From contig NZ_JACHMM010000001.1 in assembly GCF_014204975.1 (NCBI RefSeq), positions 6,200,037 to 6,264,036 of the forward strand: a stretch of 64,000 nucleotides of DNA, written 5' to 3'. Every line of letters begins with the position of its first letter. Positions within the stretch are counted from its first letter, which is position 1. Below, in pieces: positions 3-49,821 of this stretch. The notes beneath the pieces are model-generated. The model did no database searches, was not told where the DNA came from, and was given only the letters and a program-made list of their open reading frames with translations. Both the position numbers and the translations under genes were made by a program. This DNA is from Jiangella mangrovi. Its GTDB lineage: Bacteria; Actinomycetota; Actinomycetes; Jiangellales; Jiangellaceae.

Positions 3-548
3 ATGCTGGACTGGGCGGACCGGACGACGCCGTCGTTCTTCCTGTCCGGGCACGACCTCGACCTGATCCTGTGGTGCTTCGAGGACCACGTGGTCGAGGT
101 CTACGCGACCGCGGTGCACGGCGTGCTCCGCGACCGCGGCATCGACACCCCCGACGCCGTCCAGGCCCAGCTCCGGCTGTCCGGCGGCGCCGTCGTCACC
201 CTCGAGGCCTGCTGGATCTACCCCGACACGTTCCCCACCATGACGGACTCCTTCCTCGAGCTCGTGTTCAGCGACGCGGTGATCCACCTCGACCGCAAGC
301 ACGAGCAGATCGAGATCGCGACCCACGACGCGTACGCCTACCCGCGCAACCAGCTGGCGGGGCGGGTGGGCGGCAAGCCGTCGGGCTCGATCGCCGGCGC
401 CGTCCAACACTTCGTCGACGCCGTGCTGGACGGCCACCCGCCGATCGTGTCGATCGACAGCTCGGTGCACGTCACCGAGGTCCTCGCCGCCATCGACCGG
501 TCCTGGCGCTCCGGCCGGCCGGTCGACCTGACCGTGGAGACAGACTGA
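3..548 (+). CDS. Gfo/Idh/MocA-family oxidoreductase, C-terminal part (5' end outside window)
   Basis: The open frame is already running at the window edge. The 181 visible residues lack the N-terminal NAD(P)-binding Rossmann fold, so the first ATG is probably internal. What is visible matches the C-terminal alpha/beta substrate domain of sugar or inositol dehydrogenases: a GHDLDL segment near residue 16 in the catalytic His/Asp region, then a beta-rich stretch (AQLRLSGGAVVTLEACW) and a C-terminal helix ending in SSVHVTEVLAAIDRSWRSGRPV, typical of the family. Its stop overlaps the start of the lipoprotein gene (TGATG), so it belongs to the sugar ABC transporter operon. The substrate is unknown; oxidation of a sugar, sugar acid or polyol is the usual role. 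Confidence 0.8.
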   Translation: MLDWADRTTPSFFLSGHDLDLILWCFEDHVVEVYATAVHGVLRDRGIDTPDAVQAQLRLSGGAVVTLEACWIYPDTFPTMTDSFLELVFSDAVIHLDRKHEQIEIATHDAYAYPRNQLAGRVGGKPSGSIAGAVQHFVDAVLDGHPPIVSIDSSVHVTEVLAAIDRSWRSGRPVDLTVETD

Positions 549-25416: not shown

Positions 25417-26796
25417 GTGCAGGAGCACGCCGACTACCGCACGCTGGACGAACGGCTCGCCGAGTGGCGCACCGAGATCCTCACCCGCATGGACCGGCTC
25501 GACGAGCTGCCCGTGCTGCCGACGTTCCCTCGGGTGAACCTGGCCCGCGAGGCCGGCGCGACGACGCGGGTCGACAGCTTCCTCGGGACCGCCAACGCGC
25601 ACGCCGTCGGCGACGTCTACTACGACCTGCAGGCGCCCGGCGCGACCGCGCTGCCGTTCACCTCGGAGGACCCGGACCACCCGGTTCTTGCCGAGTTGCG
25701 GGAGCGGTTCCCGCTCGAGGAGGTGGCCGGCGAGGGCACCGACGTCGAGAAGGCCATCCGGCTGCGCGACTGGATCAAGTCGCTGTTCCCGCACCACATC
25801 CCCTACCGGATGCCGGAGTGGAACGCGCTGCTGATCCTCGACCGTGGCTCCCGCGGCGTCGAGCACTTCATCTGCGTGCACTACTCGGTGTCGCTGGTGC
25901 AGTGCTGCCTCGCGCTCGGGCTGCCGGCCCGGATGATCAACCTGCACCGCGGCCTCTCCGACCACTACCGCATCGGCGACGAGGCCGTCGCCGACCCGCC
26001 CGTCGACGAGCACGTCGTCGCCGAGGTCTGGGCGTCGGAGCTGGACAAATGGGTCATGATGGACACGGACTTCGACGTCCACTACCAGCGCGACGGGATT
26101 CCGCTGTCGGCCTGGGAGATCCACGAGGCGTTCGCCGAGGACGAGCTGGCCAAGATCGAGCCGCAGCGCGGTCCACACTCGCTGTCGTTCAACGCCTACG
26201 GCGAGCGGCTGCCCGACGAGGACGACTTCTTCGCGACCGGCCTGCCGGCCTACTACGCGCACGTCACCGTGCTCATGCGCAACGACTTCCTCAGCGACAC
26301 CGACGGCCCGGTCACCATGGCCCACCTCGTCGACGACACCGCGACGCCGCTGCTGTGGCACCGCGGGTCGGACAACCGGCTGCAGCCGCACCTCATGGGC
26401 CCGGTCGTTGTAGCCCAGCCCTACACCGACGTGACGCCGGTGCTGACGGACGGCAACCGCCGGACCAGCTGGGCGTCTGCCGACTCGGCGGCCGAGCACA
26501 CGGTCGAGATCGCGCTGGCCGGGCCGCGCCTACTCGGTCGCGCCGTCCTGCACTGGCCGGAGTACCAGCTCAGCTACCACAGCAGCGCGACCTACCGGCT
26601 CGAGACCCGCGACGGCGACGACGGCGCCTGGGAGCCCTGGGTCGAGGTGACGTCCGGCCCGGAGACGCCGTACTCGGTCCACGACGCTCCTGCCCGCCGT
26701 GCGACGCACGTCCGGCTGGTGCAGCCCGCGGGTGGCGGCTCGGCCGGCTTCCCGGAGCGGCTCTGGCTCACCCAGGTCGAGCTCTACGCCCCCTGA
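25417..26796 (+). CDS. Transglutaminase-like protein with C-terminal discoidin-type domain
   Basis: 459 residues from a GTG with CTGGAGGA upstream, no signal peptide. Residues about 110-220 fit a transglutaminase-like cysteine-peptidase core: the Cys region HFICVHYSVSLVQCCLALG, the characteristic LGLPARMINL strand, a His in DEHVVAEVWA and an Asp in KWVMMDTDFD. Residues about 330-459 resemble an F5/8 C (discoidin/CBM32-like) beta-sandwich (VLTDGNRRTSWASADSAAEH, RLLGRAVLHWPE, ATHVRLVQPAGG). The combination suggests processing of a glycan- or peptide-linked molecule. The hairpin at 26801 probably ends the transcript. Confidence 0.7.
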   Translation: MQEHADYRTLDERLAEWRTEILTRMDRLDELPVLPTFPRVNLAREAGATTRVDSFLGTANAHAVGDVYYDLQAPGATALPFTSEDPDHPVLAELRERFPLEEVAGEGTDVEKAIRLRDWIKSLFPHHIPYRMPEWNALLILDRGSRGVEHFICVHYSVSLVQCCLALGLPARMINLHRGLSDHYRIGDEAVADPPVDEHVVAEVWASELDKWVMMDTDFDVHYQRDGIPLSAWEIHEAFAEDELAKIEPQRGPHSLSFNAYGERLPDEDDFFATGLPAYYAHVTVLMRNDFLSDTDGPVTMAHLVDDTATPLLWHRGSDNRLQPHLMGPVVVAQPYTDVTPVLTDGNRRTSWASADSAAEHTVEIALAGPRLLGRAVLHWPEYQLSYHSSATYRLETRDGDDGAWEPWVEVTSGPETPYSVHDAPARRATHVRLVQPAGGGSAGFPERLWLTQVELYAP

Positions 26797-26800
26797 CATT

Positions 26801-26856
26801 CCATGATCATCAAGGATCGGTGGGGTCCTGCCCACACCGATCCTTGATGATCATGG
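26801..26856. terminator. GGATC-core palindrome, perfect 22-bp arms
   Basis: Arms 26801-26822 and 26835-26856 are perfectly complementary with a 12-base centre. It starts five bases after the transglutaminase stop and ends immediately before a DnaA-box word and the DUF559-type gene. The word TGATCATCAAGGATC recurs at 27858 and 40523. It acts plausibly as a terminator but also belongs to a repeat family. Confidence 0.8.
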
Positions 26857-26865
26857 TTGTCCACA
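26857..26865 (+). promoter_or_regulatory. DnaA-box-like TTGTCCACA upstream of DUF559 copy 1
   Basis: TTGTCCACA is a preferred DnaA box of Streptomyces-type actinomycetes. It lies 52 bases upstream of the start codon at 26917, directly after the palindrome. The equivalent position of the second paralog has ATATCCACA (48771-48779). A single isolated box can arise by chance; conservation in two copies makes it notable. Confidence 0.4.
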
Positions 26866-26916
26866 GATCGCGATTCGGGCCTGGCGCGCGGCCCATCGCC
26901 CGATCAGGCTTGACGG

Positions 26917-27885
26917 GTGACCGATCTCGATGAGCTGGCCGGTGCCCAGCAGGGCATGGCGAGCCGCGCCCAGGTGCTCGCGTCCGGCCTGACGGTCGAG
27001 GCGCTGCGCTGGGCGGTGCGGTCCGGGCGGTGGCAGCGGGCGCACGCCGGTGTGTACGCGATGTTCTCCGGCCCGCTGCCGTTCGAGGCGCAGGTGTGGG
27101 CGGCGCTCCTGCGCGCCGGTCCGGGCGCCGTCGCCAGTCACCGCACGGCCGCCTACCTCGACGGGCTGTGCGACGAGCCCGGCGAGGTCATCCACGTGAC
27201 CGTTCCCGCCGACCGGTACGTGGAGCCGCGCATCGACGGCGTGCGGGTCCACTTCGCGCACCGTCTCGCGCGGACCCGACACCCGTCGAAGAACCCGCCG
27301 CGCACCCGGGTCGAGGACACCGTCCTGGACCTCGTCGACGCGGCGTCGCACCCGCGCGAGGCAGAAGGCTGGGTGACGGCGGCCTGCCAGCGCCGCCTCA
27401 CCAGGCCCGACCGGCTGGCCGGGGCGCTGGCGCGGCGGAAGAAGATCCGCTGGCGAGCCATGGTCGAGGCCATGCTCGACGACGTGGCGTCCGGGGCACA
27501 GTCGCCGCTGGAACTGCGGCACCTGCGCCGGGTCGAACGCGCCCACGGCCTGCCCACCGGCTGCCGCCAACGCCGCGTCGCCGGCCAGCGCGTCAGCTGG
27601 ATCGACGTCGACTACGAGCAGTATCGGGTGCGGGTCGAGCTCGACGGCCGCCTCGGCCACACCGGCGAAGGACGCTTCCGCGACCACCACCGCGACAACG
27701 ACGCCACCGTCGACGGCCGCGCCACGCTGCGCTACGGCCACGCCGACGTGTTCGGCAACCCCTGCGCCGTGGCCGCCGAACAGGCCCGCGTCCTCACCGC
27801 CCGCGGCTGGACCGGAACCGCCCGCAGGTGCAGGCCCGGCTGTCCCGTCCGGTCCCATGATCATCAAGGATCGGTGGTGCCCTGA
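26917..27885 (+). CDS. AbiEi-like wHTH plus DUF559/Vsr-like nuclease protein (copy 1)
   Basis: 322 residues from a GTG. The N-terminus (ASRAQVLASGLTVEALRWAV, then GRWQRAHAGVYA) is the winged-helix AbiEi_4-type domain also found in AbiE antitoxins. The C-terminus carries a DUF559/Vsr-like PD-(D/E)xK fold: WIDVDYEQYRVRVELDG, then FRDHHRDNDATVDG and LRYGHADVF. The final residues after CRPGCP are encoded by the left arm of the palindrome at 27855, with the stop codon in its loop. No toxin partner is adjacent. Multi-copy genes of this type are common in actinobacteria and their role is not established. A full-length paralog is at 48831-49796. Confidence 0.82.
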   Translation: MTDLDELAGAQQGMASRAQVLASGLTVEALRWAVRSGRWQRAHAGVYAMFSGPLPFEAQVWAALLRAGPGAVASHRTAAYLDGLCDEPGEVIHVTVPADRYVEPRIDGVRVHFAHRLARTRHPSKNPPRTRVEDTVLDLVDAASHPREAEGWVTAACQRRLTRPDRLAGALARRKKIRWRAMVEAMLDDVASGAQSPLELRHLRRVERAHGLPTGCRQRRVAGQRVSWIDVDYEQYRVRVELDGRLGHTGEGRFRDHHRDNDATVDGRATLRYGHADVFGNPCAVAAEQARVLTARGWTGTARRCRPGCPVRSHDHQGSVVP

Positions 27886-27910
27886 CCCCATCAATCCTTG
27901 ATGATCATGG
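27855..27910. terminator. GGATC-core palindrome encoding two convergent C-termini
   Basis: Arms 27855-27877 and 27888-27910 (23 bases, two mismatches) with a 10-base loop. The left arm codes the last residues of the DUF559-type protein, and its stop is in the loop. The right arm codes the last residues (AMIIKD) of the GNAT protein read on the other strand. A bidirectional terminator inside coding ends is the simplest reading. Confidence 0.8.
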
Positions 27911-28427
27911 CGACGAGGGGTGGCCAGCCGGGGCGGCGCCAGGATGGGCAGGCGGTGCCGGCGACGACCCAGCCGTGGGACTCGTACCAGCGCTGGACGG
28001 TCGCGGTCGGGCCCATGGGGAAGAGGTCGAGGCACGGCGCGAGGTCGTGGGCGCGGATCCAGCCGACCGCGGCGGTCAGAAGAGCGGTTCCGTGGCCCAG
28101 TCCGGCCCGGTCCGGGTCGACGAACAGGCGGCCGATCGTGGCGCATTCCTCGACCGGCCGGCCGTGGGCGGCGCTCCAGGCCTGCCGCAGGGCCGAGCCC
28201 GCGCCGCCGTGGTCGGTGGCGGCGGCCGGCTCGATGCCGACCTGGCCGACCACGCGACTACCCCCGTCGACGTCGACAGCGACGAAGGCGGCCAGGTCGG
28301 CGGGGCCGGCGATCCAGGCCTCGGGGTCGTCCGGCAGGACGTGCGGGTACCCCGTCGCCGCGTGCAGGCGGACCAGCACCTCGGCCAGCGGCTCCACGTC
28401 GGCCGGTCGCCGCTCCCGCACCGTCAT
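27891..28427 (-). CDS. GNAT-family N-acetyltransferase
   Basis: 178 residues from the ATG at 28427, preceded by GGTGGG; an in-frame ATG at 28451 would add eight residues. The acetyl-CoA-binding region is visible: GRLFVDPDRAGLGHGTALLTAAV (motif A, R/QxxGxG/A type) with a following helix, and the late YESHGWVVAGTA strand. It acetylates an unknown small molecule or protein amine. Its stop is inside the palindrome shared with the converging DUF559-type gene, five bases away. Divergent from the VOC-merR pair. Confidence 0.87.
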   Translation of the reverse strand: MTVRERRPADVEPLAEVLVRLHAATGYPHVLPDDPEAWIAGPADLAAFVAVDVDGGSRVVGQVGIEPAAATDHGGAGSALRQAWSAAHGRPVEECATIGRLFVDPDRAGLGHGTALLTAAVGWIRAHDLAPCLDLFPMGPTATVQRWYESHGWVVAGTACPSWRRPGWPPLVAMIIKD

Positions 28428-28463
28428 CCGCCCACCGTAGGCGACACCCACAAGAAACCCGGC

Positions 28464-47854: not shown

Positions 47855-48754
47855 GTGAGCAGGGACGACGTCGCCGAGCCCGACGAGGTCCGCGATGCAG
47901 ACGTCGCGGAGTTCCTCGACGTGCGCCCGCAGCTGTTCGGCATCGCCTACCGCATGCTGGGCAGCGTCGCCGAGGCCGAGGACATCGTCCAGGACGCGTG
48001 GATCCGCTGGCAGGGCGCCAACCGCCGTGAGGTGCGCAACCCGGCCGCGTTCCTCACGACCACGACGACCCGCCTGGCCCTGACGGCGGCGACGTCGGCC
48101 CGCGCCCGCCGCGAGACGTACGTCGGGCAGTGGCTGCCCGAGCCCGTCGACACCAGCGAGGACCCCACGCTGGGCGCGGAGCGGGCCGAGGCGCTCGACC
48201 TCGCCGTCCTGGTGCTGCTCGAGAAGCTCAGCCCCGCCGAGCGGGCCGTCTACGTCCTGCACGAGGCGTTCGACTACTCCTACCGGCACATCGGCGAGAT
48301 CCTCGAGATCTCCGAGGTCAACGCCCGCCAGCTGGCCCGGCGGGCGCGGCAGGCGCTGGAGTCCGGCCGGGCCGCCGAGGTGCCGCCCGAGGTCCGCCGC
48401 GAGCTGCTCGAGACGTTCGTCGCGGCCGCCCGCAACGGCGACCTCGAATCGCTCGAACGGCTCTTCACCCACGACGCGGTCGCCCGCGCGGACGGCGGCG
48501 GCAAGGTGCACGCCTCGAAGATCGACCTGCACGGCGCCGAACGGGTGGTCCTGTTCATCGACAACATCCTGCGCAAGTACTGGCAGGACGCCACCTTCAC
48601 CGTCGTCGACGTCAACGGCGGCGCCGGCATGCTCGTCACCGACCGCACCGGCACACCCCAGGCGATCCTCGCCCTCGACGCCACCGAACGCGGCGTCGAG
48701 CGGATCTTCTTCGTCGTCAACCCCGACAAGTTGCGCCAGTTCGAGCCCCACTGA
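47855..48754 (+). CDS. ECF41-family RNA polymerase sigma factor (SigJ-like)
   Basis: 299 residues from a GTG with a G-rich site. Sigma region 2 (RPQLFGIAYRMLGSVAEAEDIVQDAWIRW) and region 4 (LSPAERAVYVLHEAFDYSYRHIGEIL, VNARQLARRARQAL) are followed by a C-terminal SnoaL-like extension. The two hallmark motifs of ECF41 are present: WLPEP in the linker and NPDKL near the C-terminus. In this family the extension, not an anti-sigma factor, modulates activity. It probably transcribes the upstream epimerase gene. The stop codon is followed by half of a GGATC-type palindrome. Confidence 0.93.
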   Translation: MSRDDVAEPDEVRDADVAEFLDVRPQLFGIAYRMLGSVAEAEDIVQDAWIRWQGANRREVRNPAAFLTTTTTRLALTAATSARARRETYVGQWLPEPVDTSEDPTLGAERAEALDLAVLVLLEKLSPAERAVYVLHEAFDYSYRHIGEILEISEVNARQLARRARQALESGRAAEVPPEVRRELLETFVAAARNGDLESLERLFTHDAVARADGGGKVHASKIDLHGAERVVLFIDNILRKYWQDATFTVVDVNGGAGMLVTDRTGTPQAILALDATERGVERIFFVVNPDKLRQFEPH

Positions 48755-48779
48755 TCCTGGACGAACATCGATATCCACA
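48753..48779 (+). repeat. Half-palindrome and DnaA-box-like word upstream of DUF559 copy 2
   Basis: GATCCTGGACGA (from 48755) equals part of the right arm of the palindrome at 49802-49821. ATATCCACA at 48771-48779 differs by one base from the DnaA box TTATCCACA. Copy 1 of the gene has a full palindrome plus TTGTCCACA in the same arrangement. Confidence 0.55.
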
Positions 48780-48830
48780 GATCACGGAATGGGTCTGGCG
48801 CAGCCCCGTCTGGCCGCGCAGGCTGAGCAG

Positions 48831-49796
48831 GTGTCCGATCTCGATCGCCAGGCAGCCGTCCAGCTCGGCGTGGTGAGCCGTGCCCAGGCGCTGGCTGCCG
48901 GCATGACGGCGGACGCGCTGCGCTGGCTGCTTCGAACCGGAAGATGGCAGCGCGTGCACGCCGGCGTCTATGCGACGTTCACCGGACCGCTGCAGTTCGA
49001 GGCCAGGGTATGGGCGGCGATCCTGCGTGCCGGTACCGGCGCCGTTGCCTGCCACCGCACCGCGGCCTACCTGGACGGCCTGTGTGACGACCCGGGCCCG
49101 GTCATTCACGTGACCGTGCCCGCCGGCCGTTACGTCGAGGCCGGGATCGACGGGGTTCGGGTCCATCTCTCGCGCCGTCTGGCGCTGACGCGGCACCCGG
49201 TGAAGACCCCGCCGCGGACTCGGGTCGAGGCGACGGTGCTGGACCTGGTCGACGCCGCACCGAACCCGGGTGAGGCGGAGGGTTGGGTGACGGCCGCCTG
49301 CCAACGCCGTCTGACCACACCTCGGCGATTGGCGCTCGCGCTGCGGCAACGGAAGCGGATCCGCCGGCGGAGCATGGTCGAGGCGATGCTCAGCGATGTC
49401 GCCGACGGCGCCCAGTCTGCGCTGGAGCTCCACCACCTGCGCCGGGTCGAACGCGCCCATGGGTTGCCGGCGGGCTGCCGGCAGCGCCGTGTCGAGGGCC
49501 GGCGCGTGACCTGGGTCGACGTCGACTATTCCGAATACCAGGTGCGGGTGGAGCTGGACGGCCGGGTCGGGCACACCGGCGAGGGCCGGTTTCGCGACCG
49601 TCGCCGGGACAACCGGGCCACCGTCGACGGTCACGTGACGCTCCGGTACGGCCACGCCGACGTCTTCGGTGACCCGTGTGGGGTCGCGACCGAGCAGGCC
49701 CGCGTCCTCAGCGCCCGCGGATGGACCGGCACCATCCGTACCTGCCGGCCGGGATGCCCGGCCGCGATCCAAGATCGTCCAGGATCACTGGCGTGA
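48831..49796 (+). CDS. AbiEi-like wHTH plus DUF559/Vsr-like nuclease protein (copy 2)
   Basis: 321 residues from the GTG at 48831, the position matching the start of copy 1; an ATG at 48789 would add 14 residues. Same layout as copy 1: wHTH part (VSRAQALAAGMTADALRWLL, GRWQRVHAGVYA) and the nuclease-like part (WVDVDYSEYQVRVELDG, RDRRRDNRATVDG, LRYGHADVFGDP). Residues after CRPGCP come from the palindrome at 49772, and the stop is in its loop, exactly as in copy 1, although the palindrome sequence differs. No partner toxin gene is adjacent; the function is unknown. Confidence 0.82.
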   Translation: MSDLDRQAAVQLGVVSRAQALAAGMTADALRWLLRTGRWQRVHAGVYATFTGPLQFEARVWAAILRAGTGAVACHRTAAYLDGLCDDPGPVIHVTVPAGRYVEAGIDGVRVHLSRRLALTRHPVKTPPRTRVEATVLDLVDAAPNPGEAEGWVTAACQRRLTTPRRLALALRQRKRIRRRSMVEAMLSDVADGAQSALELHHLRRVERAHGLPAGCRQRRVEGRRVTWVDVDYSEYQVRVELDGRVGHTGEGRFRDRRRDNRATVDGHVTLRYGHADVFGDPCGVATEQARVLSARGWTGTIRTCRPGCPAAIQDRPGSLA

Positions 49797-49821
49797 TGGC
49801 ACCAGTGATCCTGGACGATCT
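49772..49821. terminator. GGATC-core palindrome, perfect 20-bp arms
   Basis: Arms 49772-49791 and 49802-49821 (AGATCGTCCAGGATCACTGG and its complement), 10-base loop containing the stop of DUF559 copy 2. It lies 14 bases from the end of the converging MFS gene, so it can terminate both. It has the same layout as the palindrome at 27855, with different but compensating bases. Confidence 0.8.

Follow-up and report, generated by a model that had tools for sequence, protein, structure and literature searches.

Two units in the genome of Jiangella mangrovi, each with a nuclease-like gene next to palindromes, suggest that palindrome, gene and palindrome form one movable cassette which recurs in actinobacteria, that is, a selfish element distinct from the systems known to spread palindromes. 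In the reading that we prefer, with a probability of roughly 0.6, two copies of one 50–60 bp palindrome surround a gene whose protein reads that palindrome, and the whole is a selfish cassette; no binding, cleavage or movement data are available for it. As far as sequence comparison goes, the reading is based on the bracketing of the gene, the dispersal of the palindromes, the agreement of their arms, a conserved box, the exchange and inversion of units, empty sites, and covariation between protein and palindrome. Both units lie in the 64,000-nucleotide stretch of DNA analysed here (the window), which belongs to a 7.16 Mb genome on a single contig (G000).

Direct reading of the window bore out the layout given in a preliminary description, in which a full or half palindrome, a DnaA-box-like word, a gene with a GTG start and a palindrome holding the stop codon occur twice (Table 1). 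In both copies, the order is hairpin, TCCACA box, gene and hairpin, and the loop of the last hairpin contains the stop codon. The two palindromes of copy 1 have identical arms, and the surviving upstream half of copy 2 equals its downstream arm by eye. When folded as single-stranded DNA, the stretches over the three full palindromes all scored better than shuffles, and convergent ORFs were found on either side of both units.

Table 1. Features of the two units in the window (positions counted from the first letter of the window).
Feature	Position	Strand	Evidence
Copy 1, upstream palindrome, arm CCATGATCATCAAGGATCGGTG	26801..26856	.	Sequence, hairpin search; ssDNA fold z -9.0
Copy 1, DnaA-box-like box TTGTCCACAG	26857..26866	+	Sequence; TCCACA and TTRTCCACA enrichment over control windows
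Copy 1, gene, 322 aa: AbiEi-type wHTH, NTase-like part and EDxHD/Vsr-like nuclease (predicted); GTG start at 26917	26917..27885	+	ORF, Pfam, AlphaFold, structure matches
Copy 1, downstream palindrome, arm same as upstream; stop codon TGA 27883-27885 in loop	27855..27910	.	Sequence, hairpin search; ssDNA fold z -3.8
Copy 2, upstream half palindrome TGATCCTGGACGA, overlapping the stop codon of the upstream gene	about 48752..48764	.	By eye; matches the arm of 49772-49821
Copy 2, box ATATCCACAG	48771..48780	+	Sequence; TCCACA enrichment
Copy 2, nuclease gene, GTG start 48831; in-frame ATG at 48789	48831..49796	+	ORF, Pfam; protein 77% identical to that of copy 1
Copy 2, downstream palindrome; stop codon TGA 49794-49796 in loop	49772..49821	.	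Sequence, hairpin search; ssDNA fold z -8.0

The preliminary description had also assigned the gene product to an AbiEi-like winged helix (wHTH) joined to a DUF559/Vsr-like nuclease. In Pfam searches of the window proteins, AbiEi_4 passed the cut-off, but DUF559 remained below it (E 0.11, 12.8 vs. 20.6 bits), so that the first half of this assignment stood, while for the second a Vsr/EDxHD type is supported by the predicted fold. In detail, the AlphaFold model of copy 1 had a mean pLDDT of 90.1, with residues 244–254 poorly modelled (numbering begins at the residue after the GTG). Residues 1–190 matched the AbiEi antitoxin 6y8q_A (Foldseek E 3.9e-7, Z 12.6) and Rv2827c (1zel_B, Z 8.8), and residues 189–298 matched the putative endonuclease NGO0050 (3hrl, Z 9.2), the EDxHD homing endonuclease I-Bth0305I (3r3p_A, Z 7.7), AbaSI (Z 6.1) and Vsr (1vsr, Z 5.7), a Z under 8 being weak when taken alone. 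The protein is thus predicted to be an AbiEi-antitoxin fold joined to an EDxHD/Vsr-type nuclease. PADLOC AbiEi models matched it as well, and PHROGs and NCBIfam gave no match. Residues E198, D229, E240, D242, H247 and D255 were invariant in 45 sequences, and therefore the nuclease site appears to be kept; E198, D229, D242, H247 and D255 were assigned by us to the EDxHD motif, with the reservation that the model is poor at residues 244–254.

When the genome was searched with the copy 1 protein, 12 matches were obtained, six of them at 62–100% identity to copy 1. By reading, five of these six genes carry palindromes on both sides, including one at G000:2988738 that has a TAG inside the matched frame, and the sixth, copy 2 of the window, has one and a half. 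The arms are common to both palindromes within a unit and different between units. The best named homologs came from Jiangella. Elsewhere in this genome, a 340-aa ORF (G000:C1:1404775-1405865; L057:8775-9868) is flanked by a pair of identical TGATCATCAACCTTTCGTGCTG palindromes that begin 1041 bp from each other; the ORF had no Pfam match and was absent from the nuclease matches of the genome.

Six loci of this genome and 80 from named records were then compared (86 in all; 42 from Jiangellaceae and 44 from others). Hairpins on both sides were found at 35 of the 86 homologs, i.e., 27/42 in Jiangellaceae and 8/44 in the others, vs. 0/264 control windows, five of which had an upstream hairpin. 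Units without a hairpin at the threshold (e.g., L108, L109, L116, L123, L127 and L142) were counted as misses, and the very long upstream hairpin of L112, at the end of a contig, is possibly an artefact of assembly. A shared end sequence was present at 54 of the 86 loci (33/42 and 21/44, respectively), and neither feature at 4/42 and 13/44. Based on 27/42 vs. 8/44, palindrome bracketing is usual in Jiangellaceae and less evident in the other loci; the expectation that homologs keep the palindrome pair was thus met within the family, while it was clear at only those 8 loci elsewhere. Further, upstream and downstream flanks matched with a score of ≥20 in 50 of 85 units (one flank of the 86 loci was too short for scoring) vs. 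4/268 shifted control windows. In the permutation within and between units, the observed value for the whole set was 2709 vs. a maximum of 1774 in 10,000 permutations, whereas that for the Jiangellaceae subset alone (1543) fell below the permutation maximum of 1673. The latter failed because the flanks of inverted orthologous units match one another, and for this family we therefore relied on the shifted-window controls and the comparison of orthologous flanks.

A second AbiEi-DUF559 family was also assayed, and up/downstream repeats were found at 17 of 26 usable loci vs. 0/49 control windows (four of the 30 loci were left out as lying at contig edges); nine of the 17 repeats were clearly self-complementary (≥0.3 on the scale used), the rest weakly or not. 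For this family, one protein of the J. mangrovi genome served as the query, and of the 118 genomes searched in the class, 67 had whole or partial matches. A plasmid search with the unit protein gave no match, and a phage search gave two unannotated faecal records, MT835975.1 and MT837139.1, which encode homologs of 30–37.5% identity.

The TCCACA word, which we take to match the DnaA-box consensus, occurred ≤200 bp upstream in 88 of 95 units vs. 42/1612 control windows (2.6%), and the longer TTRTCCACA in 53/95 vs. 0/1612 (95 of the 97 deduplicated units were counted). The word is thus nearly always kept with the homologs, as the preliminary description had anticipated, and together with the hairpin pairs these counts sustain its claim that the arrangement is a unit rather than chance. 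Two TCCACA words exactly 29 bp apart were noticed upstream of six AbiEi_4 proteins of the J. mangrovi genome that look nuclease-bearing by eye (L228, L233, L238, L239, L240 and L007); another AbiEi_4 protein, L241, had one. For three AbiEi-only proteins of this genome, the word was absent in two and single, 198 bp upstream, in one. Since the box is constant in subfamilies with quite different wHTHs, a reader of host origin is inferred; it is probably a factor such as DnaA, which would tie expression to replication. In L062, L069, L111, L112, L115 and L120 an inverted box (TGTGGA) was seen just inside the downstream hairpin, similar to a terminal inverted repeat; the counts were 6/96 units vs. 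21/1686 control windows.

Palindromes of the unit type were also found away from the gene. The pattern TGATCATSN{20,50}SATGATCA had 135 matches in the J. mangrovi genome and its reversed control none. Over 40 genomes, this one included, the 22 of its family held 1–161 matches each, while 17 of the 18 genomes from other families held 0–2 and one, G026, held 13 (the reversed control gave 0 in 39 of the 40 genomes and 1 in G039; the pattern also picks up a few non-palindromic coding stretches). G026 carries the closest homolog among those 18 (59% identity, E 2.6e-107), and by eye eight of its 13 palindromes have the TGATCATGAAG-type arm of its own unit, one of them being the unit's own. The next-closest homologs are in G028 and G034 (49 and 44% identity), with 1 and 2 palindrome matches. 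Against a simple rule, G012 and G018 held 161 and 74 matches despite having only distant homologs. For 57-bp palindromes of the GGAGAAGG type in the J. mangrovi genome (e.g., C1:394754-394854, 404537-404637 and 953828-953928), no partner gene is known; they are often fused to a 50-bp palindrome via one shared TGATCA (at least seven pairs listed). One palindrome, G018:C1:363197-363245 (L059), lies by eye inside an open frame resembling a dehydrogenase E2 gene, between domains.

To follow solo palindromes between species, six reference loci were compared with 20 orthologous regions, both flanks aligning in 12 of the 20 (score over 100). A pattern palindrome of the reference type was kept in 0/20 and one of another type in 1/20 (L217); L220 had a different hairpin without TGATCA. 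Judged by their sequences, the solo palindromes behave as dispersed REP-like members. According to the preliminary description, identical palindromes following unrelated genes equally often would have counted against a unit; taken literally this condition is fulfilled, since palindromes are also present apart from the gene, as the 135 matches show, but their dispersal is REP-like and in G026 mostly of the own-arm type.

Units of different Jiangella species share the same sites, with flanks 78–96% identical (both flanks were compared where the contig allowed, and one only where a locus lay at a contig end, as for L111 and L112). The unit was inverted in some species at sites 1, 2, 3, 5 and 7, while its orientation agreed in 5/5 at site 4; sites 6, 8 and 9 were mainly outside Jiangella. 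The protein tree tracked arm type more than site. In detail, the five resident units of site 2 formed one clade (support 0.88), and the two inverted units there, L112 and L118, fell in clades known from sites 3/5 (0.90) and 5 (0.93, L118 with L117), respectively. For the 27 units at sites 1, 2, 3 and 5, the tree required 9 site changes, where 3 would suffice if units were static and shuffled site labels gave a minimum of 11 and a mean of 15.3. These values indicated that exchange occurs, with some memory of the site, and therefore that movement is not frequent. Inversions without a change of clade were also observed (L071 vs. L089/L109, L110 vs. L114; sites 3 and 7). L141 and L170 were lost to a length filter, L170 being covered by other comparisons.

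Twelve flank pieces were searched against 12 genomes for empty sites, and 20 regions were compared. Site 3 was cleanly empty in three genomes (G000, G011 and G002; spacer 9–17 bp) and site 7 in two (G010 and G004; 19 bp); species lacking the unit thus exist, the preliminary description having proposed to look for empty sites in sister strains. None of these five clean empty sites had a pattern palindrome or a TGATCA. At site 1, G001 had one CATGATCATC, which is a target or else a footprint, and decayed genes still lay between palindromes at site 1 in G003 and at site 7 in G007; the remaining regions held other genes. At site 7 of G002, two palindromes belonging to different subfamilies enclose a gene that is ArsR-like by eye (L205; G002:C1:974300-978200). 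TGATCA stands at both palindrome ends, and among gene-less loci one TGATCA was found at L187 and none at six others; a fixed target-site duplication of TGATCA, as in an IS element or MITE, finds no support at the five clean empty sites, where the word is absent.

At copy 1 of the window the comparison was not exact. The unit was missing in G003 and G010 along with the adjoining gene, GNAT-like by eye (window 26795-28459); in the same region, about 3.07 kb was missing in G011 and a solo palindrome of another type was present in G009. The two flanks of copy 2 were not adjacent in other genomes among the matches listed.

Covariation between the protein and the palindrome arm was quantified on 53 deduplicated Jiangellaceae units that were obtained full-length, not on all listed homologs. 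Arms were taken as the words after GATCA, which in a few units (WIN2, L123 and L107) are not the hairpin arm and add noise. Arm distance correlated with whole-protein distance with r 0.43, vs. a permutation maximum of 0.29. Given the rest of the protein, the partial r of the wHTH (residues 1–52) was 0.26 (0/1000 permutations), vs. 0.06 for residues 53–190 (169/1000) and 0.07 for residues 191–298 (150/1000); with medoid arms, the respective values were 0.33 (0/1000), 0.04 (257/1000) and 0.02 (410/1000). In 12-residue windows the signal peaked at 19–36 and 37–54, which in the model are the recognition helix and the wing, and a weaker one was found in window 91–102 (r 0.14, 0/300). Residues 25–36 were followed by arm positions 1–4 and 10–14, and not by 5–9 (r -0.02). 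After thinning to 42, 26 and 23 proteins, the wHTH partial r was 0.30, 0.21 and 0.21 (0, 6 and 21/1000), and in the smallest set (23 proteins under 80% identity) residues 53–190 rose to r 0.17 (69/1000). Pairs from different sites only gave 0.27 for the wHTH. Recognition of the palindrome arm by the wHTH is thereby supported, though binding is not proved.

From these data a mechanism can be proposed, most of which is inferred. The N-terminal AbiEi-type winged helix would bind a palindrome arm, for which covariation is the only evidence and no experiment exists, and two protomers on one palindrome may unite two EDxHD/Vsr-type nuclease domains. I-Bth0305I is reported to act as a dimer on a DNA target almost 60 bp long (PMC3943268), which a dimer on a 50–60 bp palindrome would fit. 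Cleavage at palindromes, either at cassette ends or at a resident cassette, might start repair or strand transfer, by which the whole cassette, or an end palindrome alone, would be copied elsewhere. The expected outcome would be solo palindromes, replacement of cassettes at the same site in either orientation, and clean empty as well as decayed sites, all of which were seen. Dimer binding, cutting, the copying of cassette or palindrome and the link to DnaA are inferred. Likewise, the preliminary suggestion that the nuclease spreads the element remains an inference, although a better supported one, now that the wHTH has been found to covary with the arms and cassettes to be exchanged between sites. 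We would put about an even chance on the full statement that these units are a new class of mobile palindromic element, in which a wHTH–EDxHD nuclease dimer recognises its own 50–60 bp palindrome and mobilises the cassette or the palindrome alone, arm specificity co-evolves with recognition helix and wing, coupling to replication comes from a DnaA-type box, and AbiEi-DUF559 genes drive the REP-like repeats of actinobacteria.

Other explanations have to be weighed against the selfish cassette. A plain terminator beside a gene is rejected, since the arms are alike at the two ends of a unit but not across units, and since the wHTH covaries with them. A self-regulating host or defence protein, whose AbiEi wHTH binds palindromes only as operator- or terminator-like elements, whose nuclease hits phage or foreign DNA, and for which solo palindromes are scattered binding sites, is unlikely without being negligible. 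It would accommodate the AbiEi-type fold, the PADLOC matches, and window units placed between convergent ORFs with a stop codon in the hairpin, and wHTH–arm covariation, which would look alike for an operator, fits it equally well; but it is opposed by paralogs of one genome that differ in their arms, with like arms at the two ends of each unit, by inverted and exchanged cassettes, clean empty sites and the fast turnover of solo palindromes, and by a window without abiEii.

The palindromes are far more numerous than the units, the 57-bp type lacks a known partner, two genomes (G012 and G018) are palindrome-rich and have none but distant homologs, and palindromes also enclose an unrelated ORF (L057) and the ArsR-like gene (L205), all of which favors REP- or MITE-like palindromes moved by some other, unidentified enzyme, with the nuclease gene as a frequent cargo between two of them. 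This is nevertheless distinctly improbable, as the arm covaries with that part of the protein which reads DNA, something not required of a cargo, repeated ends recur in the second AbiEi-DUF559 family, and a Y1 transposase, the only transposase family covered, was present in none of 12 genomes. Ordinary homologous recombination, or an invertase, acting on the bracketing repeats around a stable resident gene whose wHTH simply tracks its operator would make no new sites, empty sites or dispersed palindromes, and the two inverted units of site 2 belong to clades known from other sites; even though the inversions without clade change (L071 vs. L089/L109, L110 vs. L114, site 7) and a site memory better than random agree with it, this explanation appears highly improbable.

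REP-like palindromes are common in bacteria. Since those described here occur with an unrelated enzyme and without a Y1 transposase, a second, independent way of spreading palindromes may exist. In our reading, the nuclease spreads its own cassette and probably the solo palindromes, similar to a REPtron but with unrelated enzyme chemistry, where cutting and transposition are inferred. If true, this would give a role to AbiEi-DUF559 genes, which had whole or partial matches in more than half of the genomes searched in the class (67/118), and would account for the strongly conserved DnaA-box-like element upstream of them. The wHTH–arm covariation predicts which protein pairs with which palindrome, so that the idea is testable with purified proteins and oligonucleotides.

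No such system, nor DUF559 and AbiEi together, was found in the literature, which was accessible only in part (most subscription journals and bioRxiv outside PMC were not covered), and in the available part of a Jiangella genome paper palindromes appear only within the name CRISPR (PMC5292007). With AbiE type IV toxin–antitoxin systems the unit shares the AbiEi fold of residues 1–190 (wHTH and NTase-like part), but it has no adjacent AbiEii and carries an extra nuclease domain; AbiEii was found at four places in the J. mangrovi genome and at none in the window. The three AbiEi-only proteins of that genome adjoin AbiEii genes and have no paired hairpins, the one with TCCACA 198 bp upstream having one upstream hairpin and the other two none. 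Vsr/DUF559 proteins share the C-terminal fold (1vsr, Z 5.7; DUF559 scores weak and below cut-off), whereas the unit protein is fused to an AbiEi part and bracketed by palindromes. EDxHD homing endonucleases have in common with it the nuclease fold (3hrl, Z 9.2; 3r3p_A, Z 7.7), the conserved acidic and His residues and, for I-Bth0305I, an extended DNA-binding part, which in the unit is instead an AbiEi-type wHTH; further, no intron or intein was seen at the units. Homing genes are typically placed so as to destroy their own target, while the units retain two intact palindromes, if the palindrome is the target.

A further parallel is with REPtrons. According to two reports, palindromes accompany or flank the REPtron gene and recur elsewhere in the genome, each enzyme goes with its own palindrome type, and palindrome ends can provide stop codons for adjoining ORFs (PMC8266576, PMC3733652); a given tnpAREP is mostly single copy and evidence for its mobility is lacking (PMC8266576), and GTAG REPs have a dedicated HUH/Tyr transposase, while CGTC REPs apparently have none (PMC3733652). 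As far as those sources reach, the unit shares cognate palindromes on both sides of the gene, with further copies scattered over the genome (in Jiangellaceae; outside often not clear), the matching of enzyme and palindrome, and palindromes that supply stop codons. It differs in its enzyme, an AbiEi-type wHTH with an EDxHD/Vsr-type nuclease vs. HUH/Tyr, in palindromes of about 50–60 bp without a GTAG (or CGTC) foot and with ends mostly of the TGATCA type by eye, and in having several units per genome (six in J. mangrovi) that are exchanged and inverted, vs. a mostly single-copy and, in what is accessible, immobile tnpAREP. Y1 transposase (PF01797) was found in 0/12 Jiangella genomes, while the same search was positive in 5/14 control genomes; with the AbiEi-like and Vsr-like fold, this rules out membership in the RAYT/REPtron group, and the preliminary comparison with REP-associated transposases holds only as an analogy. 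With cutting and transposition inferred, the unit works like a REPtron but is not one.
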